Part shown: positions 3,448 through 40,644 of the stretch, one piece after another
Numbering within the stretch: position 1 is the first letter of the stretch
Layout of the letters: the number at the start of each line of letters is the position of its first letter
Assembly (NCBI RefSeq): GCF_964275005.1
Contig: NC_092690.1
Location: forward strand, 13,246,787 to 13,310,786
Length of the DNA: 64,000 nt
Source: Diadema setosum
Lineage: Eukaryota; Echinodermata; Echinoidea; Diadematoida; Diadematidae
Direction: 5' to 3'
Position numbers and translations under genes: made by a program
Notes under the pieces: generated by a model
What the model saw: the letters and a program-made list of their open reading frames with translations, nothing else
What the model was told of the DNA's origin: nothing
Database searches by the model: none

Positions 3448-3451
3448 TTAA

Positions 3452-4009: not shown

Positions 4010-4013
4010 TTAA

Positions 4014-16495: not shown

Positions 16496-16799
16496 GTCTT
16501 TGGGAACAGATGCGTGTAAATAACATATTATGTAAAATGGGATTTCAAGTGTGAGACATTATAACTCCTGAACCAAATACAATACTGACCTCTAATTTTC
16601 TCCAAATATTGATTATATGGGAAAGATGTTAATTTCTGCATGGTTTTCATAAACATTTTTAATTTTATTTCTTCTTACTTTTTAGAGAAATATTCATGGT
16701 GCATTCTGAAAATGTCACCATAAAAACCTAAGATGGTTTGAAATGGCATTAAAATGTTCAGAATATATAAAAACCATATAAATAGACAGCAAAACAGAC

Positions 16800-19385: not shown

Positions 19386-19407
19386 CTTACTGTCATGAAA
19401 TGACCTT

Positions 19408-19455
<48 letters not shown>

Positions 19456-19459
<4 letters not shown>

Positions 19460-21260
19460 TGGAGCGGCATAGCCGAACAATTGTGCATTTTGTGATAAAA
19501 GCACCAAATTTCGTACACAGGTTGACAATCACGTTCAGATCAAATTTAGATATTGGGCCATCGTAAATAGCGCCCTCAACGTCCATGGCAGCCATTTTTC
19601 AAAATGGCTGCCATAAATGCCATGTTTTCGTAAAAAATGCTAATTTTAGGAGAGAAAAGTAAACAAGATATTGGTTACAAATGGGAAATTACATTCAAAA
19701 TAAATCTAGATATCGAGCCATCGGAAATAGCGCCCTCAACGCCCATGGCAGCCATTTTTCAAAATGGCCGCCATAAATGTCATTTTTTTTCAAAACATTT
19801 GCTAACTTCAGAAGGGAAAGCCAGTAAGATTTTGCAAACAAGTGGGAAATTACATTCAAAATGAATTTAAATATTTTGCCATTGTTAACTGCGCCCTCAA
19901 CGTCCATAACAGCCATTTTTTAAAATGGCTGTCTAATGTGCCACTCCTTCGATGATTTTGCAAATTTCAGAAGGGAAAAGTTAATAAGATTTTGCCCATA
20001 AATATTAATTACATTCAAAATAAATCTAGATATTGGGCCATCGGAAATTGCGCCCTCAACGGCCATGGTAGCCATTTTTTCAAAATGGCCGCCATAAATG
20101 CCATTTTTTGTTAAAAAATGCAAATTTCAGAAGGAAAAGCCAATTGTTTTTTCTCTTTTGTGCAAACAAGCGGGAAATTACATCCAAAATAAATCCAGAT
20201 ATTTGGCAATTGAAAATTGCGCCCTCAGTGGCTATGGCAGCCATTTTTTTTTTTAAATGGTCACCATAAGTGCCACTTTTTCATTTAAAAAAAATGCTAA
20301 TTTCAAAAGGAAAAGTCAATGAAATTCTGGTTATAAATGGGAAATGACATTTAGAATAAATCTCAATATTGGTCCATCGGAAATTGCGCCCTCAACGGTC
20401 ATGACAGCCATTTTTCAAAATGGCCACCATAAATGCTATATTTTCGAAAAGATTTACTAAAATTAGAAGGGAAAGCCAACGAGATTTTGCAAACAGGTGG
20501 GAAATTACATTCAAAAGTAAACTTATTGGGCCATTGCGAATTGCCCCCTCAATGGCCATTCCAGCCATTTTTCAAAATGGCCACCATGAATGTCTTTTTT
20601 TCGTAAAGTGTTGCAGACGTCAATCAGAATTTCCACAAAGGTGGAAAATTACATTCAACCTGAATTTGATAATAGGCCATCCAAAAGTGCACCCTCAAAA
20701 GCCATAGCAGCCACTAAGTTTCAAACAGCTGCCATGGATGCCCCCCCCCCACCATTTTTTTCCCAAAAATTTGCTGATGTCAGAAGGAAAAGTCAATAAG
20801 ACTTTGCAAACAAGTTGAACATTCTGCTCAAAAATAAATTTAAGTATAAGGTCTTCTTAGAAGGCGCCCTCAAGGGCCATGCTGACCGCCATGGATGTCT
20901 GCTTCTTTTTTATTTTCTTTTTTTTTTGTTGGAAAGATTTGCTAATTTCATAGAGAAAATCAATGAAATTTGTACATATGTTGAAAATCATATTCAAAAG
21001 AAAATAATATATGAGGCCATTACAAATGGCACCATCAAGGACCATGGCAGCCATTTTCCAAATGGCCACTATAAATGCTATTTATTTTTTGAAAATATGA
21101 TAATGCCAGAAGACAATACAATTTCTTGTGGAAATTGACAAAAGATATTCAAATAAATTCAAGTTTGAATTTGAATTTGAATTTGAAATGAAGATATTGA
21201 GCCACCATTTAAACATCGTCCCCAACGGCTATGGCAGCTCTTTGTCAAAATGGCTTCCAC
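19456..21260 (+). repeat. Left arm: ~11 modules of ~165 bp
   Basis: The GCGCCCTCAACG-type anchor recurs at about 19571, 19731, 19892, 20051, 20220, 20387, 20544, 20690, 20865, 21031 and 21217. Each module contains an ATGGCAGCCATTTT...AAAATGGCNGCCAT hairpin and a GGGAAATTACATTCAAAAT block. Outer modules are regular and inner ones increasingly degenerate. Confidence 0.88.
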
Positions 21261-21672
21261 ACACTCCTTTTTTTTTATTTGCCTATTCCAGAAGGAGAAA
21301 GCAATAGAATACTGCTAAAGAGCAATTATATCTAATGCAATCTGGTGTTCAAAGAAATTTAAATAAAAAAAAAAAAGGTTTCATTGATGGGTTAGTTCTA
21401 AATTCATGTTTTCAGTTTAGTTCTAATTGTAGTATTTCGCGTGTGACGGCTAACAGTATGGATATCAAATGTATGTGTTTTTATGGAAGCATAGCATAAA
21501 GTAAATTAACTTTTTTTCGTAAAATGAAAGGCCATTAAGAATGTCTTAAGAATGTTTAGGAAGTCACATTTTAGAATAGATACACGTCATATAGTCCCAT
21601 ATATTCAATGATATGGTGTTACTGTCAAAGTTGATACATGGCGCCATTATCCCTGGATATTCATATTACTCT

Positions 21673-22369
21673 TGTTACGACCAAAATCACTCTGAGAATG
21701 ATCGCACAAAAGAAACAATCAACTGATGTTCAGGCGGTTTATTAAAGGCAGCCGGTCGTCGCAGGCGATTCGCAGCTCAGTAGAAAAGCACGACAAGCTG
21801 CTCCTCCCGTTATTGTACCCCCGTACGTACCGAATGCCGAACACGACGCTACGCAGCGCACCAGCGAAAACCAGATGGGGCACGAGCGCCGTGCGAGCTG
21901 TCCACTGTAATTTCAACATGGACGCCCGTATACCTACCGAATTCGAATCGCCGAATGGGTGCGTGCATGCACAAAACCGCACAACAGCCATGCGCATGAA
22001 AATCTCTCCCGGTCCGCGACACAAAGTAGTGAGAGCTGTCGGGTGTACGTACGTACGTATCTGGCTCCAGTCTCTGTTTATATGCACTATGGTGCCAATT
22101 TCAGCAATCTAAGCAATAATATTTCAAAATGTCTGAAAATATTATATAACAATATCATAAATTATTCATATATTACGTTGTTTAATATTTGGTATTTATA
22201 AATATGCTTTGATGAAGAAATATTAAAACTCTAAGCTTCATGTATAGCAAGTTGCAATGCATATGGCCATATGGCAGGTTGTTATGATCTCATCGTGCAA
22301 TGTTGTCTGCTGCGTCAGCTGCATGTGGTATACGTACAGCTTAATTTTACGTTGGGCCGGATCGTAACA
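21673..22369 (-). mobile_element. Solo LTR of another retrotransposon
   Basis: This 697 bp segment has the terminal inverted octamers TGTTACGA and TCGTAACA with TG...CA ends. Read on the minus strand, a TATAAA (22077-22082) precedes an AATAAA (21738-21743) that lies 65 bases before the end, the order expected of a U3-R-U5 promoter and polyadenylation unit. No internal retroelement genes adjoin it, so it would be a solo LTR. No flanking duplication is evident, which weakens the call. Overlapping open frames on both strands here are not credible genes. Confidence 0.55.
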
Positions 22370-22507
22370 TAACAAAGTTGATAGAAAGTCGTCGGTACCG
22401 GTATGTCAATATCAATATTGTGTGTGGTATGCGAGTACTGTTTGCAATAAAAAGTGCTGTACTGTTTCGGCTTAGCCTTGGCTTTGGTTTAGTAATGAAA
22501 CCTCACA

Positions 22508-22830
22508 ATGGAGATCAAACAGCCGTCCAACTCGAGGCAACGTATCTACTTGTTTGACGCTATCGACGAGTGGAGAACGCAGAGAGACGTGTTCTTAGCT
22601 GGAGGACAAGTAAGAGACCAGAGGGGGAGGCTTCAGCGTCAGCGTGCCCATGAAAAATTTGCTTTCCACTTGCTGGAGTTGCATGAACAGTTTTGCAGGA
22701 ATTTTTATTTAGAATGTGCAAATTCGTGTTACGACATGCACGGTGGAATTGTGTTGCCACGGCTTACGCCAATCAAGCAACCCCAGCTGGCCAAGTCAAC
22801 AACTTCAAGGAATCCAGATCCAGATGATGT
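22508..22830 (+). CDS. Unrecognised exon-like ORF inside the foldback element
   Basis: The ATG at 22508 has a strong Kozak context (A at -3, G at +4). The frame encodes about 108 residues, starting MEIKQPSNSRQRIYLFDAID and continuing through a charged helical stretch (RLQRQRAHEKFAFHLLELHE) and two cysteines (LECANSCYD). It ends at a TAA unless the overlapping GTAAGT at 22831 is used as a splice donor, in which case this is a first coding exon of 323 bases. I do not recognise the family. It may be a captured host exon or part of the element's own gene. Confidence 0.4.
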
Positions 22831-22834
22831 GTAA

Positions 22835-23249
22835 GTAGAAGTCTACACATGAATCAATGATTGAAGTGGAATGACTTTTTCTAATCTAGTATCAGTAACT
22901 CTAGGGCATTTGCGTTTGATCGACAAGTAGGCCTATTTTTCTATGTATAATTCCGCGTTCTCATTTATGTCAAATTATGATAATGCCGTAATTGAAATGA
23001 CATTTGCTGGGTCAGTTTAATGTCATTAGTCCCATTAAATGAGAAGTTTTTCATATCAATCATGTTATGCAAATTCCCCAAGAATATGATTTAGGATTCG
23101 CAAATAAATTAAAAAAAAAATGAATAGATCTATCGCAAGCTCCATCATGCATGTAGTCTAACCCAATAGATCAGAACTCTAACGTTTAAACAGGGGAAAT
23201 ATAGGTTCAAAGATGATAGATCTAACAATAATAGATTCTAGTTTAGGCC
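22835..23249. other. Non-coding interior of the foldback element
   Basis: AT-rich sequence following the candidate donor at 22831, consistent with an intron. No other feature is seen. Confidence 0.4.
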
Positions 23250-23418
23250 CTACTTCGACTTGAAGGTATGTCGGTTGGTGCACGGCCCCCTTCTACCACG
23301 GCCACTACACTGTGCAGTGCAACTGTGGCCGTTGGCCCTGCACGGGCACAGTCGCTTCCCCGTCCTGAATTTACACACGCCAGGGCAAGTATGGTTGGAG
23401 CTACTACTAATCGACCGC
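23250..23418 (-). CDS. Terminal exon-like ORF with CXC-type cysteine motif
   Basis: Read on the minus strand, the segment starts just after an ACATTAG acceptor-like site and ends at a TAG (23250-23252). It encodes about 55 residues with cysteines spaced C-x3-C-x8-C-x-C-x6-C-x3-C-x8-C, including the core RLCPCRANGHSCTAQC. The C-x-C-x6-C-x3-C core matches zinc-binding CXC (tesmin/TSO1, MSL2-like) motifs, which bind DNA in several chromatin proteins. It is more GC-rich than its surroundings. It could be the last exon of a minus-strand gene in the element centre. Upstream exons were not identified with confidence. Confidence 0.4.
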
Positions 23419-25734
23419 CTAATGTTTTCTGCTTGATAAGAATATTTAACACTGAAATTCACGTAAAAAACTTGATCTACGTGATTGAGAAAATCCAGCT
23501 CTATCAAATGCCGTTGTTCCGTTTTCGATTCGAAGTTTCAGTGCAAAAATATCGCCGACGAACTTGCGTGACCTCGTTTCAGCTCCCCGCGGTAAATCGC
23601 GTTATTAGGATCGACCGCTGTTTTTGCATTGACAATGCACGCAAACCGAGTTGTATTGAACACCGTGTTGTACGAAGCTTTTTAGAAGCCTTTTAGAAAC
23701 TTCCATAGACATTACATTGTGCTGTCATTACGATTCGGTGAAAATATTCATTCGAAATTTTGTCCTTGATTAAAACCATTAATGAACAATGAATTATCGC
23801 GTTTTCCCACACCATCCTCATCTACATTCAAAGCCAATCCATTTTTATGTGCTTTGCGCGCAGAGAAGTGCGTACTAAGTGTTCAGTGCGCGAATTATAC
23901 GCGGTCGGTTTCAATAAGGGTGGTCGATATGTAGTAGGGCTACCATACAAGACACAGGGTCTCCGACCCAATCGTCCGCGTTCAGAATGGACAACTCGGC
24001 GGTAATATCCGCTACCCATGACGATGTGTCATCGTCCATGATGGCCACCCTACCTATATAATATAATCTGATCTGACGATTACAGTGTAGTTAACGGGTG
24101 ACGACGATCGACGGTGCGATGAAGAGAAGGCGTACACTGTAGTCGTACGAAGTATAGGCAGCTAGCTACATAGCTCATGCGAACATTGCATCACACAGTA
24201 CATACAGTATACCATACATTCAATTCACATTACACAAAACGTACTCCCCGCGCTCAGATCAATCAAGCGAGCAAACGAGATACTATAGCGCGATACATTG
24301 CTTTAGGGATGTCTTGCGCACACACACATTTCGCTTCGTAGCAACTTCGGAAGCGAGTTTACGTGCTGCCGCCCGCGGCTGAAATATGTCCATGTATCCT
24401 CGCGACTGGGTGTCTTTAACAGTGATATTGTGGGTACAGACTCGTAATCGGTTTTGACATCAGTACAATAATGATCAATAGAAACAATTATAAATCGGTA
24501 GTGGAATCACTTACACGTAGTACAGCCAAATTTGAAAGCAAGTAATCCTTTGACAGTGTCCAGATACGATGTTCGATGCACAGATGAATGATCCGCGATG
24601 CACCGATGAATGATACCTCAGACGTAAATCCAGAGGCGCAGGTTGTGGTAATCCTCGGTATTAATCCGGGGTAAAAATCCAGGATATACGTCCACAGCGA
24701 AACGTGCAGAATCCACAGGAAACGGGCAGAATCCAAATGTTATGACGACCACGTCCAGTTGATGCGTTGAATGATGATTCACTTTATAATGTCCAGCAAG
24801 GAATCCAGCCCATCACAGCTTTGCCGTAATAATGTCCGTTGACACTAAAATATGGAGTCTATCTCCAATGTAGGCAAATTAATTCTCTGCAGGCAAAATG
24901 TCTCCCAGGCCTTATCTCCACAAACACAGTTTGTATAGCAGGTCAGCAGGTAACACAGGACTGACTATAACAAGTCGCTTCAAAGCCAGAAGTGACGTAA
25001 CTCTCAGAGCAGAGGTGTTGGGTACTCTGCCTACTGCAGAATTTCTCCAGCTTATATACTATCCATTCACCCCTTTCTAGCACATTCTGTAATTTTCTCC
25101 AATCTGGGGCCACATACCTGAACATACTAGCAAGTCCAAATTCCAGGATTCCTGGATGACTCACTGCCTAACTATGTGCATAACATCATTGCCAAAATTA
25201 ACTACCAATCACATTGGGTTACAGGGGCAGTGCCTCACTCAGCCAAACATGCAAGCACTTCCCAGAATTTTCTGGAATGGGTGAAATCATTCTAGATTGA
25301 GTGAGCTATAATGTATTTCCTGTCACATGCAAACATGTACTGTAGTTACATTGTATACCACATAGAAAATTCTCCACTGATCTGGTCAGCCTGTATGTAC
25401 TATATCTATATCATATAGAATGTTCTCCATTAATCTGGTCACCCTGTGTACATACAATGTACACATTAAAACAACCATGCATACAGCCTTGATACATTAA
25501 ACATTTGTACATAACTACTTGTGTGTACATTTGTGACACTCTTTTCGGAAATTTTTCATGTTTACCACCTAAAATATGCATTCATCATTGGTGAGATATA
25601 ATCGCTAAGCATTTGCCTTGTTTATTTTAGTTGTTCCTCAAATGATTTCTTTAACACCCTATTTCAGATTACACAATGTCTCTGTGAGTATTCTACTGTC
25701 TTCTCCTTCTAAAGTTAAGCAAATTTTCAAAAAA
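23419..25734. other. Centre of the foldback element, no firm genes
   Basis: Long open frames here are short and uncharacteristic. A strong donor-like GTAAGT on the minus strand lies near 24513 (CTACGT|GTAAGT). A ~53-base tandem duplication with CTGATCTGGTCAGCCTGT-like sequence is at about 25364-25456. Nothing else is recognised. Confidence 0.4.
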
Positions 25735-27633
25735 AGAAAGAAAAAGAAGAGTGTATTGTAGCCATTTTGGCAAATAGCTGTAATAGTCATTGAGAACACA
25801 GCTTATGATGGCTCAATGTTTACACTTCTTTGTATGTAATTGTCAACTTGCGCAAAAAAATGTTTATTGTCTTCTTTCGGCAGTAGGACATCTTCATAAA
25901 AGAAAAATGGCATCTATGACAGCCATTTTGGAAAATGGCTGCAATTACCGTTATTAGCATTTTTTTCTTCTTGAAAATTTGCGATGGAACAATTTCTAGA
26001 GTTAGTGCAACCTGGATATTATATTGTTTGATTTTAAACATGATTTTCAATTTATGTACACATTTGTTGACTTTTCTTTCTGAAATTACCATTTTTTAAA
26101 ACAAAATGATTATGACAATTGCAGCCATTTTGGAATATGGCGGCAATGGCCGTTGAGGGCAGTATTATAATAATCTAATACAAATATTTATTATAATAAT
26201 CTAATACAAATATTTATTTCAAACATGATTTTCAAATTGTGTGCAAAATCTTATTGACTTTTCCTTTTGTAAAATCAGTAAATACAAAATAATGGAATCC
26301 ATGGTGGCCATTTTGAAAAATGGCTGCAATGGCCATTGATGGCGCTATTTACAATAATGTAATACATAGGCGCAAGATATATTTCAAAAGAAATTTTTGA
26401 ATTGAGTGCAAGATCTTATTGACTTTTCTTGTGGAATTAGTAAATTCAGAGAAAAAAATTTCATTTATGGCGACCATTTTGAAAAAATGGCTGCCATGAC
26501 CATTGGGGGCACAATTTGCGATGGCCCAATATCTAAATTTATTCTGAATGTTATATTCCACTCGTTTGCAAAATCTTATTGATTTTCCCTTCTGAAATTT
26601 GTAAAATCTTACGGAAACTGGCATTTATGGCCGCCATTTTGAAAAAAATGGCTGCCATGGCCGCTGAGGGCCCAATTTGCGATGGCCCAATATCTAAATT
26701 TATTTTGAATGTTATTTCCCACTCGTTTGCAAAATCTTATTGATTTTCCCCTCTGAAATTTTTGACATTTTACGAAAACTGGCATTTATGGCGGCCATTT
26801 TAAAAATCCCTGTCATCGCCGTTGAGGGCGCAATTTGCGATGGCCCAATATCTGAATTTACTTTGAATGCTATTTCCGACACATTTGCAAAATCTTATTG
26901 ATTTTCCCTTCTGAAATTTGTAAATTTTTACAAAAAAATGGCATTTATGGCGGCCATTTTGAAAAAAAAAATGGCTGCTATGGCAGTTGAGGGCGCAATT
27001 TACGATGGCCCGATATCTGAACTTATTTTGAATGTTATTTCCCACTCGTTTGCAAAATCTTACTGGTTTTCCCTTCTGATTTTTTAAATTTTTTTTGCGA
27101 AAAATGGCATTTATGGCGGCCATTTTTGAAAAAAAAAAATGCTGTTTTGGCCGTTGAGGGCGCTATTTACGATGGCCCAATATCTGAACTTATTTTGAAT
27201 GTTATTTCCCACTCGTTTGCAAAATCTTACTGGTTTTCCCTTCTGAAATTTTTAAATTTTTTTTTGCGAAAAATGGCATTTATGGTGGCCATTTTGAAAA
27301 TGGCTGCCATTTCCGTTGAGGGCGCAATTTGCTGTGGCCCAATATTTAAATCAATTTTAAGTGGCCCAATATTTAAATCAATTTTAAATGTTATTTCCCA
27401 CTCGTTTGCAAATCCTTATTGATTTTTCCTCCTGAAATTTGTAAATTTTAACGAAAAATGGCATTTATGGCGGCCATTTTGAAAAATGGCTGCCATGGCC
27501 GCTGAGGGCGCTATTTACAATGGCCCAATATCTGAATTTATTTCAAATGTCATTGTCAACATGTGTGCGAAATTTGGTGCTTTTATCATAAAATGCACAA
27601 TTCCTCTAATTTTTCAAGCTATGCCGCTCCACT
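25735..27633 (-). repeat. Right arm: ~11 modules of ~165 bp
   Basis: In mirror orientation to the left arm, GAGGGCG-type anchors occur at about 27501, 27317, 27153, 26988, 26824, 26665, 26503, 26338, 26155, 25940 and 25790. The outer modules share TTCCCACTCGTTTGCAAAAT and ATGGCATTTATGGCGGCCAT. The innermost modules are degenerate, as on the left. Short ORFs across it are tandem artefacts. Confidence 0.88.
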
Positions 27634-29134
27634 ATATATATATATATTGTTTTGTTTTGTTTTGCTGTTACAAATGAAACGGCTGGTACAGAGACTAACC
27701 AGCAAAAGAATGTGTTCGGGAAGTTTGGCAGTTCGCCAAGAGTGAACCCAGATTTCTTCTTGTTTTTGACCTTTTACAGCTATGAAGGTATGTTGAGATT
27801 TGTACCATCTAAGCTTTGTCAGATATAGAATATGTAAGATGACTGGCATTGCATAAATGTGGGTAGTATTCAAGACATTCTTTCCTAAAGTGGTATTCAC
27901 CTACAAGTTTGTACACTGTATCGTTACAGTTTGTGTCACACAGTTTGTGTATGTGAAAATGATTGAGAGTGGTTTGTTTTCACATGGGTTTCGTGATCTG
28001 TATCGACATTATAATTCATTGTATTCCTTTGTTTAACCAAAAAAAGGGGAAAAGGAATTGTGTAGAAATGTTGATGAAAGTAATGATATAGTTAGAATGG
28101 TTGTTATAGTTCTGAAAGTGACTGAATTATTGATGATTTCACGAACTTGTTTTTAGTAGTAGCGTATGAATATTGTGTGGAAAGGCTGGGGCCACACATG
28201 GGTGCATGTAAAACTTACAGGCGGATGGATATTTTAGTTTGAGTAGTGTGATAGGGCTCTGTTTGTGTGTTCAAACACTTTCTCATTACTCCTCTGTAGG
28301 GCTTTGTATGGTTGCTCATTATTGTAGGCAGGTTGTTAAGACAAAACCACGCAGAGTTGTGGCCTGTTGATATATTATGTACATGTATAATGTAATGAGA
28401 GTTGAAGTGTAAACTTGTGGGAATAGTATAGGGAAATTTCTGCACAGCTTACAGTTAATGCAACAAAGGAGTAAGACATTAAATTTTGTTTTTGTTATAT
28501 TTGAGGAAAAATTGCAAAACAAAATACAACAAACAAGCTGATCTGTATTATTGTTAGGGATTATTACTCACCTGCATACGTGTATTGCATTATAGGGAGT
28601 AATATTGCTCTAATTGTTGTTGAGGAAGGAAACAAATCACATATTGTTGTTATAAATGAAAAGTAAGGTTTTGGAAGGATTTTCCGAGAGTTGCGAATTA
28701 CAACTGAGTTTTTTAATGAAACATTCATTTGAAGTTGTGTTTGCTATATAATATTTGTAGGGACACATAACTTCTAGTTCAAGTTCACGGATGATTATTT
28801 TCATCCAAGTAAGTGTATAGATAACAAAATACAAAGTATACACATTGTGTTATTTGATCCGAATGTATGTTGAACTTTAATACTGATTTTTGTGCTCCAT
28901 CTTTTTTTTTTAATCGCATACAGAAATCTCAACACTGTTGTTGAATCTACTCATGACCGGCACATCACTGTTACAGTAACCACAGAATAAACAGGAAACA
29001 ATCAAAGTTTAAATACGCTTCCTTCTCCTGTGTTTCAACGGTGCGTTCGGTCTATTGCAGCAACATGGAAATTAGTTACACTCCCGATCACACAACATCT
29101 TCAACAACAATCTGGCTGACCTGCAGAATTTACC

Positions 29135-29364
29135 ATGGCTGAGAATCCAAAAGGCCTGAGGTTCTCACGACGAAATCTGAAGGGACAGCTCACCAGAACG
29201 CTGACAATTTTAGATAGACTCATAAAGGATGACAGACATGTCAGCATGCTGCAGAAGCATATCAGCAAAGCAGAGGACTGCAGTTTGAAGGCATTGAAAA
29301 GAAACATGAAGAGCTGACGCAAGTTATTGAGGATGATGCAGAGTTTGAGACAGAGGAAAAATGG
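29135..29364 (+). pseudogene. BEL gag N-terminus, frameshifted
   Basis: The ATG at 29135 lies 38 bases after the 5' LTR and opens a frame reading MAENPKGLRFSRRNLKGQLT, with a basic, helical composition. Near 29280 the gag-like reading passes into the frame used by the next ORF (FEGIEKKHEELTQVIEDD). A single frameshift there therefore splits the gag N-terminus from the rest. The coiled-coil-like helix before the DUF1759 region is usual in BEL/Pao gag proteins. Confidence 0.7.
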
Positions 29365-31317
29365 ATGAGTGACTGTGAATCCAGATTCATTCAGACATTG
29401 GTAGAAGCAAGACGGACTGTTGACTGCTGTTCTCAGTCTTCTGCGTCAGATACACATGGAGCGTCTATGCCCTCAACACCAATGACCCCACGGCAACACA
29501 CCGCCACAACTGCATCTGATCCTCAGCAAAGTCCGCCTTCAAATGCCTCTCCTGCAACACCACTCCTCACGTCGCGTCCTTCTACTTCCGGAGCCGGGAG
29601 TATGTCAAAAATGGCGAGGATGAAATACCCAACTTTCAATGGAAACAGCAGAGATTACGAGAGATTCAAAGCTCTGTTCAATCACTGCGCTGTGGGGCTC
29701 AATGAAATTGAATGCTTCTACCAGCTGACCGAAGCCATGGTGAACTCAAAGGAACGGAATATGATCAGAGGCTGCATTAACGTCGAGCGGGCATGGGAGA
29801 TCCTCGACGAGTACTTTGGGGACAGAGACCGTATAGTTGACAGCCTGATGAAGGACCTGGAGAACCTCAAGACGTATGAAAGGAGAGGCAAAATCGACAT
29901 TCCTGCTATGGGCCGATTTATCCAAACACTGCAGAATTTCGAAACCCAAGCTGAATCAGTCGGACTGTCAGGCGAAATGAACAGCAAGATGATGCTTTGT
30001 TCCATAAAGCGTAAATTACCAGAGGAACATCGCGTTGGATTCTACAAGAGCGTCAGAGATGACGGAACTGCTGATTCACTGTCTGGACTCAACAGATGGC
30101 TTTTTAGAGAACACATCGTCATTCAGAAAGCTACGCCGGCAGACACTGAAAACACTGGGTCATCGCAGAGGATGACCAAATCATCAAACGCGGCCGTGGA
30201 CAGTGGGCAGCACCACACAGACAGAAAAGTGCCGACTCTCAAGTGCCCTCTTCATGCTAAGACGACGTCACATTTCCTCAAGAACTGCAACAAGTTCCGG
30301 ACCTTGACACTGGAAGAGAAACATGAGATCTTGAAGGGGAATGGATTCTGTTCTCGATGTGGCCATAATAACTGTGTTGCTGGCAAGTCCCCATATGATC
30401 ACAGCCGTTGCCAGTACATCGCTCCATGCCGCATACCGACTTGCGGCAGTGACCAGCATTTTGCCTCGATTTGCCCTGTGGTTTACGGAAGTAATGCAAA
30501 GAGCCAGCAAGGGAACCCACAGAGTCGCCCGACCAGCAGCACAGCAAAGGTGTCGACAGTGACCTCCACCGAGCACCTTCAGAGTACCCTGCCAACGGTC
30601 ATGGGTTACCTGCATTACGGTAACCAGAAACGTCTGGTGCGCATACTACTGGATGGGGGAAGTCAGGCCACATTTCTGAGGGAAGGTGTTTTCCCCAAGT
30701 CAGCTAATGACTCATTTCAAGACCATGATTTGATCCTTGTTGGCGGCAGCAAAATCAGCAAGAAGCTAAGAGTCCTAGACTGCCATATCGAGGACCTAGA
30801 GGGTAATTGGTCTTGCCCGATTACCGCCACAGAGATTGATAAACCTTGCGGTGATGCCCCCATCATACAACCAGACCAGTTACAGCAATATGACTATCTT
30901 AGAGATGTCAATGTTGATACTGCTCATTCAGAGATGATCGACGTCCTCCTTGGCGTCGACAATACTCACCTCATGATCTGGGAGGAGTACATCCGTGGTG
31001 AGAGATCGGACGAACCGGTAGCTGTCAAATGCCCGCTTGGATGGTTCATCCAAGGGGGGAAATCAGCAGGATCGACATCGTTACTGAACTATGTAAATGT
31101 TTCAGCCGTAGGGTCCCTCGAAGAGTACATTGGATTGGAAACAGCTGGTCTAGAACCAAGGAGATGTCGTTGCACTGCCGACTTTGAAGAAAAGAGTGCA
31201 ACAGTCAAAATGGAAGAGAGTGTCACTCGTCTTCCTGATGGTTCGTATGAGGTCGGACTTCCTTGGAAAAGATCCCCAGATGATCTTCCTGACAATTTCC
31301 AATATGCCGTCAAATGA
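29365..31317 (+). pseudogene. BEL/Pao gag-protease region
   Basis: An open frame of 650 codons. After a Ser/Thr/Pro-rich linker it contains the gag core starting about residue 85 (MARMKYPTFNGNSRDYERF), the DUF1759 family. A cysteine/histidine-rich nucleic-acid-binding segment follows (CSRCGHNNC), then the aspartic protease region (DUF1758-like) with LLDGGSQATF, the catalytic aspartate at residue 430. The usual D-S/T-G is D-G-G here, which may impair the protease. The frame ends at a TGA (31315-31317), after which RT-type reading continues in the same frame, so the stop is a premature nonsense codon in this copy. Confidence 0.85.
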
Positions 31318-32336
31318 CAAATGTGTCTGGAAAAACAATTTGCTGAAAGGCCTGAAGACTGGGAGATCTACTGTCAACAGATGAGAGAGCAACTCAACAG
31401 AGGTGTTTCACGGCATGTGACTACCGAAGAACTGTTGCGTGACCGAGAAGCGAACAGAAAGATGTGGTTTCTTCCTCACTTTGCAGTGGTCAAGGACTCA
31501 AAACCACTCCAGTACGTGTAGTGTATGATGGCAAAGCGAAGTACCAGGGACATTCACTCAACGACTATCTTGCTAAAGGAGAAAATGTCAATTCCAACCT
31601 CATTGACGTTGCGCTACGATTCCGTGAAAACGAAGTCGGCGTCATTGCAGACATCAGCAAAATGTTTCAGGCGATCAAAATACAGCCAGAGGATGCGCGG
31701 TTCCACAGATTTGTGTTTAGGGAAAACCCAAATCACCCTATCCAAATCTACGAACTCACAACAGTCACCTTCGGGGACAAGTCCTCCCCCACCGCCGCCA
31801 TCGTCGCCCTGAGACACGTAATCCATGAGCACGCACCTAATGATGAGAGACTGAAGCGGGTGGCTGCAGAACAGTTCTACATGGATGACCTCAATGAGTC
31901 CGTCGTCAACCCTGCAGAGGCACTGGAACTAAAGTCAAAGCTGACAGAGACGTTGAAAAAGGGAAACTTTTCCATAAGAAAGTGGCAGTCGAATGTCAAA
32001 GAAGTGTGTGATCAGACTGAAGACACCAGTGTGGCAACTGTTCTGGGTACTCGCTGGAATCTGGCAACAGACACCTTGAGTGTTAAGGAAGTGAAGACAT
32101 CTGACAATGCGATATCAACTAAACGTAAGATCCTAGCTCAAACAGCATCATACTACGACGTTTTTGGTATGTTGTCTGGACTTCTCGTTCGCCCCAAGAT
32201 TCTGCTGCAGAAGCTTTGGCAATTGGGTGTTGATTGGGATACCCCCTTGAATGACAGATCTGAACTGTGCTCACTCCTGAGTGCCATCAACAGCGATCTA
32301 CAGGAAGCAGCCACCATTGAAATCCCACGGTGCTGA
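31318..32336 (+). pseudogene. BEL/Pao reverse transcriptase, broken
   Basis: The N-terminal RT segment (LEKQFAERPEDWEIYCQQ, MWFLPHFAVVKD) is in the gag-protease frame up to 31521. The rest continues in a second frame (from about 31510) with VRVVYDGKAKYQGHSLND, IADISKMFQAIKI, the catalytic FYMDD box and KWQSN. One frameshift near 31510 and an in-frame TGA at 32334-32336 interrupt it. The order and motifs match the Pao-type RT family. The catalytic centre itself is conserved. Confidence 0.85.
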
Positions 32337-33928
32337 ATTCCCGAGATGTACAGAGGGAGGCGGCCTCTACCGGAAGTGTCCATGCACGGCGCGAGTGATG
32401 CCTCAGAGGATGCAATGGGCATCGGCGTGTGGTTGAGATGGTCAAATTCCACAGACTCTGAAGCGCAGCTGTCATTTGTTGCAGCAAGAGCCCGCCTCAC
32501 TCCACTCAAGCAGTCCATATTCCACGGAAAGAACTACAAGCAATCCTGTTGCTGTCGAGACTGATGGTCACCCTGAAGAATGTGCTGCGCTTCAATATTG
32601 CGTACTCCAGGATCTGGACTGATAGTATGACTGCTATCAGCTGGCTCCGGGGACAGTCCAAGTCCTTTCGCTCGTACGTTGCTTACCGTGTTGGTGAGAT
32701 TACCTCTGAGTTTGACCCCTACAAGGATATTGCGTATGTTCCTACAGACCAGAACGTCATCGACCTGGTTTCCAGGGGAGGCACTGCAGCAGAAATGAAG
32801 AGAGTCATCGAGGGGCCTGAGTATCTGAAGTTGTCTCCTGCATCCTGGCCCAAGACACCGGAGAACATTACTGTAAACGCTAAGGATCCAGAGCAGAAGA
32901 AATTTCATGCCAGGAATGCTAAGACCTTAGCAGTCACAGTCAACACTGCATCCAGGCCTCCTCCAATGATCGATGCCACTAAGTACTCCAGCTGGCCAAA
33001 GTTATTGATGACTTCAGCCAGAGTCCTCTCCATGAAGGACGTTCCCAAGAAGCTATGGTTGAAGCAGCTTACTCACCAGATCTCTCAGTGGCCTTCTTTG
33101 AAACACATCAAGGAAGCAGAGCTGTACTGGATCCGAGAAGCGCAAAGAGACATTGACTTTCGTGATCCCAACATCCTGAAGTTGGATCCATTCTATGATG
33201 AGGATGACCACGTGTACCGTGTTGGAGGGCGTATTGATCGTGCACAACTGTCCTTTGATGTTCGTCACCCGTACCTTCTCCCTGGGAAGAATCATATCAG
33301 TCTGCTGATTGTACGTGACAGACACACTCACGCTCTCCATGGGGGTCATCTCCGAACGGCAACAGAAGTTCGGAAGAAGTACTGGATTGTTGGAGATACG
33401 AGCATCTCAAAACATGTTGTTCAAGAATGTGTTGTCTGCAGGAAACACAGAGGAAAGCCAGTCCAGCAGAAGATGTCGGACTTACCGGACTTCAGAGTCA
33501 AACCCTGCACACCCCCGTTCCAGACAACACTGGTAGATTACCTCGGACCAGTAAACGTAAAGTTGAGCAGGAACACTACCACAAAGGGTTACTGCGCGGT
33601 CTTTACCTGCGCGGTGACTAGGGCCGTGCACCTGACATGCGTACAAGACTTATCCACTCAGGCGTTTCTGCAGGCTCTTGAACGCTTTGTCAGCATCAGA
33701 GGGGCCCCATCCATGCTTATCAGTGACAACGGTACATGTTTCAGGGGAGCGGACAATGTCATTAATCAGCTGAACCTGAAACTGAACCACGACCAAGTGA
33801 GACAACGCTGTCGCAGATACAACGCTGAGTGGAGATTCGGACCACCCGCTGGGGCCTCATCATCAAGGAGCCGTAGAATGAATGGTCAGGGAGGTGAAGA
33901 AGGGAATGCGGCATCTCGTCACATCTGA
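32337..33928 (+). pseudogene. BEL/Pao RNase H and integrase, broken
   Basis: RNase H begins just after the stop at 32336 (MHGASDASEDAMGIGVWLR). A frameshift near 32525 moves reading to a 459-codon frame (32549-33928). This contains the RNase H end (DSMTAISWLRG), the integrase zinc finger (HALHGGH...CVVC) and the core aspartates (TLVDYLGPV and ISDNGTCF). Near 33845 another shift disrupts the region where the third catalytic residue (Glu) is expected, and the tail of this frame is no longer integrase-like. The integrase is therefore inactive as encoded. Confidence 0.85.
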
Positions 33929-34430
33929 TCGTCTGACATTTGCGGAGTGGGAGACCGTCTTTACGCAGATATCTGGTGTCATCAATAGTCGTCCCCTCAC
34001 TGCCATGTCATCATCGCCATTAGACGATCCGCCGCTGACTCCAAATCACTTTCTGATCGGAAGAGGTGACTTGCCTTGCCCAGAGGTCCCTTGCGAAGAG
34101 TCCAAAGGCGACTCCAGGAAGCGGAGAGAAATTTGTAACGCCATGGTTGACGGCTTCTGGCAGCGCTGGTTAGCTTGGATCCACAAACTCTCCCCGCGAC
34201 CAAAGTGGCAACAGTCTGTCGAAAACCTCGCAGTGCACGACGTGGTACTTGTCATCGGTGAAGACAAAGCACGTGGGTCCTGGAAAATGGCTGAAGTTGT
34301 GCAACTCTATCCAGGGAAAGACGATCTGGTGAGGGTTGTTGATGTTAAACCTGCGGATGGTGTAGTCGCAAAGAGGCCTGTAACGAAACTCATTCTCCTG
34401 ATGAAGAAGTCAGAGTGCCTAGATTTATAG
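33882..34430 (+). pseudogene. BEL/Pao integrase C-terminal part
   Basis: A 182-codon frame resumes integrase-type reading with MVREVKKGMRHL, INSRPLTAMS, PLTPNHFLIGR and FWQRWLAWIHKL. It ends with a DUF5641-like domain (VHDVVLVIGED, GSWKMAEVVQLYPGKD, RPVTKLILL). It overlaps the preceding frame by 47 bases through the frameshift. No envelope-like ORF follows before the 3' LTR. Confidence 0.8.
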
Positions 34431-34646
34431 AACCTTAGTGCTTCTCAGGACCTGTGGTGTATTTTGTACAAGTGATTGATCAATCCTTTTCTGTTGAAGT
34501 AAACTGCGGGAATGCTAGCCTAACTTCACCCATGAAGATAAGATATCTCATTCGGTTTAGAAAAGTTTCACAGACACGGACTTGAACAACAGGCACTTTC
34601 CCATTGCCTCTGTGTGTTGTTTGGATGGTGACATTCCGTCACCTTT
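34431..34646. other. BEL/Pao 3' untranslated stretch
   Basis: Non-coding sequence between the integrase stop and the polypurine tract. No further ORF is seen. Confidence 0.6.
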
Positions 34647-34658
34647 GGGGGGATGGGA
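34647..34658 (+). other. Polypurine tract
   Basis: GGGGGGATGGGA, eleven purines interrupted by a single T, lies directly before the TG of the 3' LTR at 34659. Reverse-transcribing elements prime plus-strand DNA from such a tract, and its exact position supports the LTR boundary. Confidence 0.8.
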
Positions 34659-34678
34659 TGTCATGAAATGACCTTTAT

Positions 34679-37600
34679 TTTTTTTTTTTTTGACTTAAAT
34701 AAAGTTTTGTTTTTTATGATTGTACATAAACTGTGTATGATTTTATTTGCATTGTGTATGCTTTTTAAGTTGTATTTTTGATACTGTATTTATTCATTTA
34801 TTTTTTAACAATACATTTTAACCTTTGTAGTATGTTTAATTCATGTCTGTGTGTTACATGTTCACAGCCTGTTTATTCTGAAGAAGTATCACTGCTTTGT
34901 AATTTATGTACCCATCTGGTGCATGTAGAATGTATTCCTAATTTTTCACTCGATGATTTTGGAAAACTTGGTGAAAGTGAAAGATTATCCTGGTATTGTC
35001 ATGTATGCATTGGTAAAGAATTACCTTTTAATATGCACTCCTCTGATACTGATTTTTATAATGCAATGCATACTTTTTTCAATTCTGAAACAATGCACTC
35101 TCATCAATCAGACTTTTGTTGTGTTGACAATGATATTAAGGATTTTTTGAAGGAAGATATGGATAGTGAGACTTCAAAATATTTTACCCCAGCTGATTTT
35201 AGTGCATTTTATAATTGTAAATATAAAAAATCATTTTCTGTTTTTCATATGAACTGCAGGAGTTTACCAAAACATTATGAAGATATTACACTGTTATTGG
35301 ATTCTCTTGAGTGTTCTTTTAATGTTATTGCATTGACAGAAACTTGGTTAGATTCTAGCAATGCAAAATGTTATTCTTTTTGTGGATATAATATTGTCAG
35401 TAAAGAAAGGATAGATAAGAAGGGAGGAGGATTAGCTCTTGCCATTAAACAAGATCTGAAATATGTTATGAGACCAGATATTAGTATATTCAATGATGTA
35501 TGTGAAACGTTGTTCATTGAAATACATAAATCTCATAAAAATGTTATTATTGGTGTGTGTTACAGACCACCCTGTAAATCTGTAAAAGGTTATCTCAATC
35601 ATTTGAAAGAGATATTATCTGTTGTTAATTCAGAGCATAAGGAATGTATATTGCTTGGAGATTTTAATATAGATTTGATGAAACTTGATGTTAGCTCTTA
35701 TTCACATGAATTTTTAGAAACATTTTATGCCCATTCATTCTTGCCTATGATAAGCAAACCTACAAGAATAACGGATAAGTCAATGACTTTGATTGATAAT
35801 ATTTATTCAAATTATGATGATAATGTGAGTGCTTTTTCTGGGATAATGGTGACAGATATATCTGATCATTTACCTATTTTTTATGTACTTAATAATGGTG
35901 TTTCTGATGATGGTGGTACTGATAAACAGCAGATGCAGTATGAAGTAAATGATGTTAATATGTGTAATCTTATGCGGCAATTAGAGGAATATAATATCAT
36001 GTTTAAAGAAAATAACAGTAAGGATCCACAATATTTATATACAGATTTTATAGAGTTTTATTGTAATGCATTTGATATGTGTTTTCCACTGAAGTGTGTA
36101 AAGAAAAAACAAATTAATAAACCTTGGTATTCATATGAATTGAAGAAACTCTGTTCAAAAAAGGGCAGGTTGTATAAGAAATTTATTAAAAATCCTTCCC
36201 AGTACCGAAAAGAATGCTACCTTAAATCTCGTAATGTATATACCAATGCTGTTAAAGCTGCCAAACGAAAGTATTATTTTTGTAAATTTCAGAATTTAAA
36301 AGGTGATATATCTAAAACGTGGAAGTTAATTAATGATGTATTACAAGTACGTAAAACAAGGGTTCAACAAAAGGTTTTTCAGCATGATGGTAAAGTATTA
36401 GAAAATCCTGAAGATATTGCACGACATTTTAATCATTATTTCATTAATGCTGGAAATAAAATTGCTAAAGGCTGTAGGCAAAGTTTTTTCACTCACAGAG
36501 ATTTTTTATGTGGAAATTTTAATCAAACTGCTTTTTTTAAACCTGTAAATAAAAAAGAGATTATTGATTATGTTTTAGCTTTGAAAGATGGAAAGGCTCC
36601 AGGGTATGATCAAGTTAAGTCTCTGGTAGTTAAGAGAGTAATTCATATAATATGTATACCTTTGTGTTCAATTTTTAACCTCTGTCTTGAAACAGGCCAA
36701 ATACCAAAGGAATTAAAGTTAGCAAGGGTTATTCCGATTCATAAGAAAGAACCAGTTGATGTGTTTTCAAATTACAGGCCCATTTCATTATTACCCTTGT
36801 TTTCTAAAATATTTGAAAAGTGTTTGTATGTTAGATTGCAAGGTCACTTAGATAAACATGGAATTTTGTATAAAAAGCAGTTTGGATTTCGAGCTAAACA
36901 TTCTTCATTTCATGTTTTGTTGGATTTTATGTTGAATTCATCAAAAGCAATAGAGAATAAAGAAATAATAGTTGGGATTTTTCTGGATTTTAAAAAAGCA
37001 TTTGACTCTATTAATCATGAAATATTATTGGATAGATTATGTTTTTATGGGATCCGTGGAGTAACACTTGAATTGTTCCGTAATTATTTGTTTGATAGAA
37101 AACAGTTTACTGTATTTTCTGATTATAATTCTTTACATGAAAAAGTTGTGTGTGGAGTACCTCAAGGGTCAATATTAGGTCCCCTTTTGTTTTTGCTATT
37201 TATAAATGATTTATCAAATATTTCTAATGTCATGAATGTACTGTTGTTTGCTGATGATACTAATCTATTTTTTAAACATGAAAATGTAGAATGTTTGGCT
37301 AAAATGATTAACACGGAACTGTGTAAAGTTAGTAATTGGATAAGTGCAAATAAGTTACAATTGAATTATGAAAAGACGCACATGATGATTTTTAACTCTC
37401 GTAAGAGAGATACAAGTACATTGAAGGTATTTATTGATGGCCATGTAATAACAAATGTAAAGACAACTAAATTTTTAGGTATTAGTATTGACTCTGATCT
37501 AAAATGGAAGACACATGTGAATGAAATATTGTTGAAAATATCTAAGATTATTGGAGTTATGAGTAAATTAAAAACGTGTTTGCCAAAATGTATTCTTTTA

Positions 37601-38416
37601 ACCATTTATAATTCATTAATCCTTCCTCATTTGTTATATAATATCATTGTTTGGGGTGCTTGTAGTAAGTATTTATTGCATCATATTTTCCTACTGCAGA
37701 AAAGAGCGGTACGTATCATTTCAAAGTCTTCATATGATAGCCATACAAAGCCATTGTTTCATGAATTGAATATACTGCCAGTATTTTTACTTTATGATTA
37801 CGAAGTGATTTGTTTTATGCATTCATATACTAATGATAGGTCGCCAGAATTATTTGATAATTTGTTTGTGCAAAATAGGTCAATTCACAATTATAATACA
37901 AGAAGTGCAAATGATTTTCGTGTGCAATACGGAAGGTTCTCGTTTACAAACTCTAATATCATATGCAGAGCACCAGAATTATGGAATATGTTACCTGAAA
38001 ATATAAAACAATGCAGTGCTGTGAAAAATTTTAAAGTAAAGTTGAAAAAATATTTATTACAAAAGTTTATATCAGATAATTAGTTTTTTTTTTTCATAAT
38101 CAGGCTGAGTTATTGTGATATGTGTGCGTGTATGTGTGCGTATGTACAAATGTCTCAATGTTTTTGATATGCATGTTAATGACAACTTATACTTTATATG
38201 ATTGTTGTTGGATCTTCAAGTTATAAGTTATTTTATTACTTTCTGGAGATCCATCCATTTGCCATTCATATTATTGTCTCTATTTTTTTTTTCAATTGTC
38301 TATGTAAATTGTACTTTTACTTGTGTGTTAATGATATATATCATGTCTTTGTACTTGTTCATGTTGTTCATGTTGACATGGAAATGGAAAATAAATTCAA
38401 TTCAATTCAATTCAAT
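34679..38416 (+). mobile_element. Full-length CR1-type LINE inserted in the 3' LTR
   Basis: Its limits are exact because the interrupted LTR sequence (CTTTAT|ATACATAT) is known from the 5' LTR. The 3738 bp insert has a short 5' UTR beginning with a T run, one long intact ORF (34778-38083), a 3' UTR and a TTCAA-repeat tail at about 38395-38416. No clear target duplication longer than two bases can be seen. Being intact and younger than the BEL element, it is a good candidate for a recently active LINE. Confidence 0.9.
34778..38083 (+). CDS. LINE polyprotein: PHD finger, endonuclease, reverse transcriptase
   Basis: One uninterrupted ORF of 1101 codons. Residues 25-77 form a C4HC3 PHD-type zinc finger (Cys 25/28, 41/44, His 49 and Cys 52, Cys 74/77). 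An apurinic-type endonuclease follows, roughly residues 150-370, with NCRSLP, LTETWLD, VCYRPP, LGDFNID and the catalytic SDHLPIF. The reverse transcriptase, about residues 600-880, has YRPISLLP, LDFKKAFDSINH, GVPQGSILGP and the FADD box at aspartates 826-827. The C-terminus has the usual YNTRSA and APELWNMLP motifs. All catalytic motifs are present. Translation may start at Met 19 rather than Met 1, whose first residues are hydrophobic. The family is CR1-like by domain content. The clade assignment is tentative. Confidence 0.93.
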   Translation: MILYLFIYFLTIHFNLCSMFNSCLCVTCSQPVYSEEVSLLCNLCTHLVHVECIPNFSLDDFGKLGESERLSWYCHVCIGKELPFNMHSSDTDFYNAMHTFFNSETMHSHQSDFCCVDNDIKDFLKEDMDSETSKYFTPADFSAFYNCKYKKSFSVFHMNCRSLPKHYEDITLLLDSLECSFNVIALTETWLDSSNAKCYSFCGYNIVSKERIDKKGGGLALAIKQDLKYVMRPDISIFNDVCETLFIEIHKSHKNVIIGVCYRPPCKSVKGYLNHLKEILSVVNSEHKECILLGDFNIDLMKLDVSSYSHEFLETFYAHSFLPMISKPTRITDKSMTLIDNIYSNYDDNVSAFSGIMVTDISDHLPIFYVLNNGVSDDGGTDKQQMQYEVNDVNMCNLMRQLEEYNIMFKENNSKDPQYLYTDFIEFYCNAFDMCFPLKCVKKKQINKPWYSYELKKLCSKKGRLYKKFIKNPSQYRKECYLKSRNVYTNAVKAAKRKYYFCKFQNLKGDISKTWKLINDVLQVRKTRVQQKVFQHDGKVLENPEDIARHFNHYFINAGNKIAKGCRQSFFTHRDFLCGNFNQTAFFKPVNKKEIIDYVLALKDGKAPGYDQVKSLVVKRVIHIICIPLCSIFNLCLETGQIPKELKLARVIPIHKKEPVDVFSNYRPISLLPLFSKIFEKCLYVRLQGHLDKHGILYKKQFGFRAKHSSFHVLLDFMLNSSKAIENKEIIVGIFLDFKKAFDSINHEILLDRLCFYGIRGVTLELFRNYLFDRKQFTVFSDYNSLHEKVVCGVPQGSILGPLLFLLFINDLSNISNVMNVLLFADDTNLFFKHENVECLAKMINTELCKVSNWISANKLQLNYEKTHMMIFNSRKRDTSTLKVFIDGHVITNVKTTKFLGISIDSDLKWKTHVNEILLKISKIIGVMSKLKTCLPKCILLTIYNSLILPHLLYNIIVWGACSKYLLHHIFLLQKRAVRIISKSSYDSHTKPLFHELNILPVFLLYDYEVICFMHSYTNDRSPELFDNLFVQNRSIHNYNTRSANDFRVQYGRFSFTNSNIICRAPELWNMLPENIKQCSAVKNFKVKLKKYLLQKFISDN

Positions 38417-39133
38417 ATACATATATATATATATATATTTTGTTTTGTTTTGTTTTGCTGTTACAAATGAAACGGCTGGTACAGAGACTAACCAGCAAAA
38501 GAATGTGTTCGGGAAGTTTGGCAGTTCGCCAAGAGTGAACCCAGATTTCTTCTTGTTTTTGACCTTTTACAGCTATGAAGGAATGTTGAGATTTGTACCA
38601 TCTAAGCTTTGTTAGATATAGAATATGTAAGATGACTGGCATTGCATAAATGTGGGTAGTATTCAAGACATTCTTTCCTAAACTGGTATTCACCTACAAG
38701 TTTGTACACTGTATCGTTACAGTTTGTGTCACGCAGTTTGTGTATGTGAAAATGATTGAGAGTGGTTTGTTTTCACATGGGTTTCGTGATCTGTATCGAC
38801 ATTATAATTCATTGTATTCCTTTGTTTAACCAAAAAAGGGGGGAAAAGGAATTGTGTAGAAATGTTGAGGAAAGTAATGATATAGTTAGAATGGTTGTTA
38901 TAGTTCTGAAAGTGACTGAATTATTGATGATTTAACGAACTTGTTTTTAGTAGTAGCGTATGAATATTGTGTGGAAAGGCTGGGGCCACACATGGGTGCA
39001 TGTAAAACTTACAGGCGGATGGATATTTTAGTTTGAGTAGTGTGATAGGGCTCTGTTTGTGTGTTCAAACACTTTCTCATTACTCCTCTGTAGGGCTTTG
39101 TATGGTTGCTCATTGTTGTAGGCAGGTTGTTAA

Positions 39134-39516
39134 AGGGACTGTACAGTAGTGGTTGAGGTGGGGATTCATGTTTTGAACATTCCTAAGTGAGATAATGAGA
39201 AACCTCTTATGAAATATGAAAGAGCATGTGATTTTAAGAAGGATTCAACGTTTATTTGATGAAAATTGGTTTTCAAATGGCTGAGATATCCCCAAAAGTG
39301 ATAATAATAAAAGGCGACATGCCCCACCTTTATTAAGATCTCTTTGTTTCACCTTGTTTTTGGATATCTCAGCCATTTCAAAACCGATTTTCATCAAATA
39401 AACTTTTGATACCCCTTAGAATTGCATGCTCTTTGACATCTCATAGAGTGGTTTCTGAATATCTCGCAAAATGTTAAAAGCTAAATCCTCACCTCGACCA
39501 GAACTGTACACACCCT
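39134..39516. mobile_element. TTAA-flanked MITE inserted in the 3' LTR
   Basis: The element (383 bp) is flanked by TTAA (39130-39133 and 39517-39520), and the sister 5' LTR shows the unoccupied site with a single TTAA at 28336-28339. Ends are AGGGACTGTACAGT and ACTGTACACACCCT. It is related to 17875-18235. It carries no ORF and the two halves are largely self-complementary. Confidence 0.95.
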
Positions 39517-40644
39517 TTAAGACAAAACCACGCAGAGTTGTGGCCTGTTGATATATTATGTACATGTATAATGTAATGAGAGTTGAAGTGTAAACTAGTG
39601 GGAATAGTATAGGGAAATTTCTGCACAGCTTACAGTTAATGCAACAAAGGAGTAAGACATTAAATTTTGTTTTTGTTATATTTGAGGAAAAATTGCAAAA
39701 CAAAATACAACAAACAAGCTGATCTGTATTATTGTTAGGGATTATTACTCACCTGCATACGTGTATTGCATTATAGGGAGTAATATTGCTCTAATTGTTG
39801 TTGAGGAAGGAAACAAATCACATATTGTTGTTATAAATGAAAAGTAAGGTTTTGGAAGGATTTTCCGAGAGTTGCGAATTACAACTGAGTTTTTTAATGA
39901 AACATTCATTTGAAGTTGTGTTTGCTATATAATATTTGTAGGGACACATAACTTCTAGTTCAAGTTCACGGATGATTATTTTCATCCAAGTAAGTGTATA
40001 GATAACAAAATACAAAGTATACACATTGTGTTATTTGATCAGAATGTATGTTGAACTTTAATACTGATTTTTGTGCTCCATCTTTTTTTTTTTTAATCGC
40101 ATACAGAAATCTCAACACTGTTGTTGAATCTACTCATGACCGGCACATCACTGTTACAGTAACCACAGAATAAACAGGAAACAATCAAAGTTTAAATACG
40201 CTTCCTTCTCCTGTGTTTCAACGGTGCGTTCGGTCTATTGCAGCAACGTGGAAATTAGTTACACTCCCGATCACACAACACTTACAATGAGCTCAGGATA
40301 ATAATACTTGTACACTTATATTTTTGTTGAAATGGAATTGCATACTAAATACAACGAAAGGAAATTAGATATATTGTAATGGACGTGATGCCAATAGAAA
40401 TGTATAACTTCGTTTAACATATTTGACGAATAAAGGTAGAGTAATGTAAAGCAGTAATGTCCTTACTTTTGTATGCCCTGACCCATACGTTGTCTCCATT
40501 TCTGTCTCTTTCATTAACTGCATGTAGAGTACAGTGTATCTCTTTTTAATGTTCATTCTGGTTTTTGTTTCATGTGCAATGCTTATGTTATGTATTCTTT
40601 ACCTGGTCGAATAAATAATACCGTAATAATAGAAGTAATAATTT

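Follow-up and report, generated by a model that had tools for sequence, protein, structure and literature searches.

The stretch of DNA analysed here, a 64,000-nucleotide window from the echinoid Diadema setosum (assembly GCF_964275005.1, contig NC_092690.1, positions 13,246,787 to 13,310,786 of the forward strand), contains a foldback element whose two long arms are made of the same tandem module in mirror order. The element is one copy of a real, recently active, multi-copy mobile family. Taken as a whole, the data are best explained (with a probability of roughly 0.75) by a non-autonomous AcademX-type foldback that would be mobilised in trans, its modules acting as secondary transposase-binding sites.

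An earlier note, made from the letters of the window, had described at 19456..27633 a giant mirrored element with perfect 16-bp termini and 11 + 11 mirrored modules of ~165 bp in arms of ~1.8 kb. The observation holds, with the span corrected to 19457-27634 (Table 1). The termini are perfect at both ends but 17 bp long (TAGTGGAGCGGCATAGC); the module count and the mirroring stand, with a module consensus of 159 bp; and the arms measure ~1.88 and ~1.94 kb, each consisting of 11 in-register modules and one outer partial module. With up to three mismatches allowed, the terminus matches twice in the window (shuffle mean 0.03; none of 100 shuffles with two or more matches), and no module match elsewhere in the window is better than E 0.019. 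The mirrored structure is real and far beyond chance. The description of outer modules as regular and inner ones as degenerate is also borne out in both arms by the identity to the 159-bp consensus (L1-L6, 0.79-0.90, and R1-R6, 0.87-0.91, versus L7-L11, 0.64-0.79, and R7-R11, 0.65-0.77).

A search of the source assembly (912.7 Mb, including the window) demonstrates that many other copies share these termini, contrary to the possibility, raised in the earlier note as grounds for rejection, that none would. At no more than one mismatch the terminus occurs 219 times genome-wide, compared with once for a control; half of the 219 termini gives ~110 copies. Amongst the best 40 candidates scored for each end (making the end matches lower bounds), 30 of the 40 left ends pair with one of the 40 right ends, and the 80 ends are spread over 21 contigs. 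The left ends have 96-100% identity, 100% being the window copy itself, and the spans of the 30 pairs have a median of 4141 bp and a range of 3.5-8.2 kb, with the window copy the longest. Twenty copies were fetched, 19 of which have both ends inside the 10 kb retrieved; in total, 37 of the ~110 copies were examined besides the window copy, ten of them by their ends alone. Since these were picked mostly among the best matches to the window copy, divergent copies are under-represented.

Outside the window, an exact 3-bp target-site duplication (TSD) flanks 33 of the 35 copies tested. The duplication lies directly outside TAGTGG..CCACTA in 17 of the 19 two-ended fetched copies (the exceptions are L032 and L034), is exact in all ten further end pairs, and is present in all six copies with both ends located amongst eight further copies, including the coding relative L071 described below; L070 and L066, having a single end each, were excluded from the count. 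The TSD of the window copy, TAT/TAT, is ambiguous inside a (TA)n tract. The sequences from 27 copies are TAA (nine), TTT and TTA (three each), ACA and TAG (two each), and eight singletons. Over the first 1000 bases of the left arm, 17 fetched copies and the window copy show a mean divergence of 3.2% (range 0.3-4.8%; L032, L038, and L040 were excluded because they are rearranged), indicating that the family was recently active. L069 (51-923) is 873 bp long and retains both end types; it is flanked by a 3-bp TSD (ATA), has about four modules, all oriented the same way, and is the smallest mobile unit among the copies examined. In L038 (600-5960) the left and right blocks are duplicated and there are two complete right ends, each followed by the same flank. 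A search of viral contigs with the 15-bp core of the terminus gave 16 matches, which were taken as chance.

The word 'giant' does not describe the family, because the 8.2-kb size of the window copy results from a nested insertion (3.9 kb) and the usual unit is ~4.1-4.3 kb. The centre of the element measures ~0.47-0.48 kb in three copies; in the window copy it is split by 3.86 kb of DNA with TG..CA ends and CTCT or ACTCT duplicated, 0.56 kb of which recurs, at 90% identity, adjoining copy L029. An exon-like open reading frame (ORF) at 22499-22834 (MEIKQPSN..), for which database searching found a single relative (139 aa, 79% identity), is part of this nested insertion and not of the foldback. 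The six interior frames scanned, all in the nested insertion, gave no Pfam match above the cut-off, and neither the window nor any of the 20 fetched copies was found to contain anything similar to the L071-type protein; some copies have a few ORFs of 120-171 aa spanning the arms. In these scans no gene belonging to the foldback itself was found. Copy L032 carries a nested long interspersed nuclear element (LINE). Two long copies, L036+L072 (12.8 kb) and L070 (10.5 kb), for which autonomy had been expected, were set aside as sources of transposase because their interiors, which are 98.8% alike over 7.8 kb, contain no ORF of at least 120 aa, although a spliced gene is possible. Both enclose another inverted-repeat structure with 1.1-kb arms ~93-94% alike, a foldback within a foldback.

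Among 100 termini listed, four pairs lie 9-13 kb apart, of which three were fetched (the fourth is C3:10415037-10425629), and one of them, L071, is the single coding relative found with these ends. L071 is 9406 bp long, is flanked by TTT/TTT, and has the same two end forms as the foldback: 55 of 55 outer bases at its left end are identical to the window copy, as are the first 65 bases at its right end save for an 8-base patch in the spacer (both counted by eye). Its arms are mostly 71-82% identical to those of copy L025, rising to 85% over the right outermost 172 bp. The left array contains eight full modules with a partial one on each side, while the right end has one partial module and the first third of another, so that the array is present at one end alone. 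The innermost left partial module ends at module position 132 and L11 of the foldback at 133, nearly equal stop positions that suggest a common ancestral boundary for the two arrays.

On the minus strand of L071, pieces with 62-67% identity span residues 1-1084 of the homologue P0002; the coding region is broken by one frame change and two stops, and the intact protein would be ~1,100 aa long. Database searching with a 687-aa piece found at least 816 relatives at E up to 0.001, with named sources among those listed including fishes, crabs, a limpet, a sea anemone, a sea spider, and hagfish, as well as one entry labelled as a Desulfocapsa metagenome assembly. Sequence comparison of the L071-type protein with Pfam, NCBIfam, and PDB revealed no domain of known function; DUF6589, itself of unknown function, matches the L071 piece below the cut-off (E 0.0061) and the homologue P0020 above it (E 4e-8). 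In the predicted model of P0002 (mean predicted local distance difference test score, pLDDT, 85.6), residues 657-1030 match EXO1, FEN1, XPG, and XRN nucleases (best E with Foldseek alone, 0.0012). As modelled for this homologue, the C-terminal part of the protein family folds like XPG/FEN1/EXO1 nucleases. In the N-terminal half, D53, D227, and E449 are invariant in the alignment rows with letters there (26, 44, and 45, respectively), and other acidic residues are equally so. RAG1, Transib, and Hermes are matched only weakly in fold, and every other fold match outside residues 657-1030 is likewise weak, from which no absence is claimed. The order of strands and helices in the N-terminal half of the model may be read as that of a DDE transposase into which a helical segment has been inserted, and DDE catalysis would follow from that reading.

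Comparison of the 416 modules of 20 copies (the 19 fetched copies and the window copy) with the 22 modules of the window copy demonstrates that the best match nearly always has the same rank. These same-rank matches are mostly 93-99% identical (some fall to 81%), decayed inner modules included, whereas the decayed inner modules are just 48-80% like other modules inside the window copy. The exceptions are copies L033, L034, and L035, which have deletions, copy L038 with its duplicated blocks, and the outer right block, in which ranks R01-R06 swap at times, the number of modules still varies among otherwise undeleted copies, and R03, whose nearest module is R02, comes out as best match in only four of 19 fetched copies, by narrow margins. 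Since module rank is conserved between copies, the gradient from outer to inner modules was inherited from the family ancestor, and the earlier suggestion that the arms of the window copy grew from the outside does not stand. In three module trees, L11 pairs across the arms with R11 (support 97/99, 98/98, and 99/98), and R01-R06 cluster together, apart from the left arm (95/95, 93/91, and 91/93); L10 and R10 pair more weakly (92/87 in the first tree, not sisters in the second, and 88/78 in the third). Neither the trees nor the ends, which comprise one left-type and one right-type end in all 19 two-ended fetched copies (by BLAST; L038 has two right ends), demand two separate insertions, the other outcome for which the earlier note had allowed. 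The clustering of L01, L03, and L05 in the second tree (89/87), which is not seen in the third, is a hint of dimer-wise expansion of the left arm. The simplest history would be that an inverted copy of the inner part of the left array was placed at the right end, probably during loss of the gene, and that the outer modules were afterwards re-amplified or homogenised separately in each arm.

The two ends of the unit differ in spacer length by one helical turn (5 versus 15 bp). In L043, four extra bases lie inside the 33-bp block and the spacer is unaffected, and in L071 six of the last eight positions of the 15-bp spacer differ with its length unchanged. The retention of length despite sequence change suggests, for the ends examined, a constraint on spacer length. 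A pairing rule, by which a mobile unit needs one end with a 5-bp and one with a 15-bp spacer, may be entertained as a doubtful candidate. The model for it is the 12/23 arrangement of the RAG recombination signals, in which a short spacer pairs with a long one and the two differ by about one helical turn. The foldback has the same combination of one short- and one long-spacer end per event and a similar difference in length, but its spacers are 5 and 15 bp and its motifs are others.

The modules share a conserved inverted motif at their centre, ATGGCNGCCATTTTTCAAAATGGCNGCCAT, and in decayed modules the best-kept segment is the inverted core GGCCATGGCAGCCATTTTTCAAAATGGC, while the remainder decays. 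Cores of the form ATGGCNGC number 16 and 25 in the two arms, compared with shuffle means of 0.3, and the ATGGC motifs of the module core are enriched far beyond shuffles. In the proposed mechanism, a transposase supplied in trans by L071-type relatives, combining a transposase-like N-terminal half with an XPG/FEN1-type nuclease in an AcademX-like manner, would recognise bipartite ends (17 bp and a 33-bp block, separated by 5 bp of spacer on the left or 15 bp on the right) and insert the element by 'cut-and-paste' with a 3-bp staggered cut in the target. The module arrays may serve as secondary docking sites, increasing the occupancy by transposase and promoting synapsis of the ends. This role is proposed by analogy with Galileo, in which, according to the excerpts used here (as for all papers cited below), the THAP domain of the transposase has its binding sites within the tandem repeats of long terminal inverted repeats (TIRs), and multiple sites are suggested to compensate for the cost of TIR length (PMC3688188).

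Two other functions for the arms were considered. The mirrored arms might themselves be functional, with cruciforms or template switching driving rearrangement and the modules binding nothing particular. The complementarity of the 25 longest inverted stretches (72-86%), the duplicated blocks of L038, and the many rearranged forms of the foldback Tetris (PMC4079207) are consistent with this explanation, which is regarded as possible but somewhat improbable, since the kept ATGGC core of the inner modules and the stable module order between copies suggest a function of the sequence, and the one-ended array of L071 indicates that mirroring is not required for mobility. Alternatively, the modules could dock a YY1-type zinc-finger protein of the host and not the transposase, as in lancelet ProtoRAG, whose TIRs are bound by YY1 (PMC7481187). 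The motif GCCATNTTG occurs 14 times in the 3.8 kb of the arms versus 11 times in the 55.8 kb outside, and the ATGGCNGC enrichment over shuffles in both arms would also fit. The database motif quoted in that paper, CGCCATNTT, however, is found only zero to two times per copy (twice in the window arms versus 12 times in the 55.8 kb outside), and host docking is considered unlikely.

AcademX elements make TSDs of 3 or 4 bp and AcademH elements TSDs of 9 or 10 bp, tied to a nuclease and a helicase, respectively (PMC10045372). The 3-bp TSD of the family and the XPG/FEN1/EXO1-type nuclease fold modelled for the homologue of its coding relative together point to AcademX. In the protein family, this fold is combined with an N-terminal half in which some acidic residues are invariant. 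The earlier note had found no match to a named family, and this is now narrowed to a probable non-autonomous AcademX-type element. The nuclease of AcademX is of the XPG type; the wording 'AcademX-type', rather than proven member, is used because the placement is probable. Differences from AcademX include the arms of tandem modules and the 5/15-bp asymmetry of the ends, which has no counterpart in the excerpted Academ descriptions (PMC10045372).

The foldback could instead be a non-autonomous member of another superfamily with 3-bp TSDs (PIF/Harbinger-like, Zator, or CACTA) with which L071 shares ends by recombination, although this is distinctly unlikely. PIF/Harbinger elements prefer TWA duplications, and 12 of the 27 TSDs are TAA or TTA; the other 15 are not TWA. 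The termini TAGTG..CACTA are the reverse of those of CACTA elements. Zator TSDs are 3 bp and those of PHIS elements 0-4 bp (PMC10045372). Against any such assignment, L071 and the foldback agree in both end forms and in spacer lengths, and the L071 homologue is predicted to have an XPG-like fold. A satellite array inverted by chance would account for the tandem organisation, but this reading is already refuted by the TSDs, and the fixed termini, the pairing of 30 of the 40 left ends with a right end, and the flanks (around 19 of the 20 fetched copies and in the window segment, modules are matched beyond the element only next to L038) also contradict it.

Known foldback elements resemble the AcademX-type foldback in form and differ in their duplications. 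Tetris of Drosophila virilis, with its TIR-220 repeats, similarly has a middle without coding capacity between long TIRs that contain an outer flank and tandem ~0.2-kb repeats, but its TSD is 8-10 bp, a relationship to Mutator has been suggested for it, only three of its copies are structurally complete, and its repeats also form satellite-like arrays (PMC4079207); the family described here has a 3-bp TSD, ~110 copies, and a coding relative. Galileo, of the P superfamily, similarly has long, internally repetitive TIRs with THAP-domain sites in tandem repeats and arms that vary independently of each other, but has a 7-bp TSD and a P-type transposase (PMC3573991). The fold-back Tc4 of C. elegans shares a 3-bp duplication, but its target is CTNAG with TNA duplicated (PMC11071193), whereas 12 of the 27 TSDs here fit TNA and 15 do not. 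The strings of the element were not found in a literal search of openly accessible papers, a scope that leaves out most subscription journals, and absence from print is not claimed.

The window copy lies in the 5' long terminal repeat (LTR) of a BEL/Pao-like retroelement with a match to DUF1759, a domain that marks BEL/Pao. The LTR starts with TGTCATGAAATGACC at 19391 and contains the foldback inside its (TA)n tract; the 5-bp TSD of the retroelement, CTTAC, was read by eye at 19386-19390 and 40281-40285. The sister (3') LTR, from ~34659 to 40280, lacks the foldback, in agreement with the earlier note's view of the element as one mobile unit, and has a LINE inserted at nearly the same point. 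The LINE and the foldback are read as two independent insertions into one AT-rich site. The LINE (~34680-38400) encodes an endonuclease and a reverse transcriptase, and also gives a weak match, below the cut-off, to a PHD-like finger. Elsewhere in the window, a second, smaller foldback-like element at 42225-45207 has two ~0.57-kb arms, 96% alike and each containing tandem units of 85-87 bp, and AATGTAA on both flanks, as if a 7-bp TSD. A large inverted-repeat structure at 13274-17713 has ~0.95-kb arms 90% alike and ends GAGTTGCACTCTCTC. Palindromic elements resembling miniature inverted-repeat transposable elements, with TTAAAGG at or adjoining their ends, are found at 39130-39520 (interrupting the 3' LTR), 2091-2645, and 3448-4013.

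Table 1. Features of the foldback element and its host retroelement, in positions of the window.
Feature	Position	Strand	Basis or remark
Whole foldback element including nested insertion	19457..27634	.	8178 bp; termini, TSD TAT/TAT, length
Left terminal inverted repeat, 17 bp	19457..19473	+	Terminus search
Right terminal inverted repeat, 17 bp	27618..27634	-	Terminus search
Left-end spacer, 5 bp	19474..19478	+	Alignment of ends
Right-end spacer, 15 bp	27603..27617	-	Alignment of ends; identical arrangement in L043 and L069
Left second terminal block, 33 bp	19479..19511	+	Alignment of ends
Right second terminal block, 33 bp	27570..27602	-	Alignment of ends
Left-arm outer partial module	19503..19568	+	nhmmer
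Left-arm modules L01-L11	19570..21338	+	Consensus identity, nhmmer
Right-arm outer partial module	27513..27579	-	nhmmer
Right-arm modules R01 (outer) to R11 (inner)	25688..27511	-	Consensus identity, nhmmer
Centre, left part	21339..21673	.	Alignment to copy L025
Centre, right part	25538..25687	.	Alignment to copy L025
Nested insertion, 3.86 kb, within centre	21674..25537	.	Absent from aligned copies
BEL/Pao-like retroelement; 5' LTR received the foldback	19391..40280	+	LTR match 98.6-99.1%, termini, CTTAC duplications, DUF1759 match

Foldback elements are often orphans for which no transposase has been identified; for Tetris, no autonomous copy could be found (PMC4079207). In Diadema setosum, a coding relative, a TSD, the anatomy of the ends, and the history of the modules occur together in one genome, which makes the role of long repetitive arms testable. 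Placement as AcademX-type would add to the foldbacks a group, the Academ-type transposons, that to our knowledge has been little studied mechanistically, and the unequal spacers are a candidate example of transposon ends that became asymmetric in spacer length independently. If the tentative pairing rule were true, an Academ-type element would have independently evolved a 12/23-like asymmetry, with module arrays as extra docking sites.

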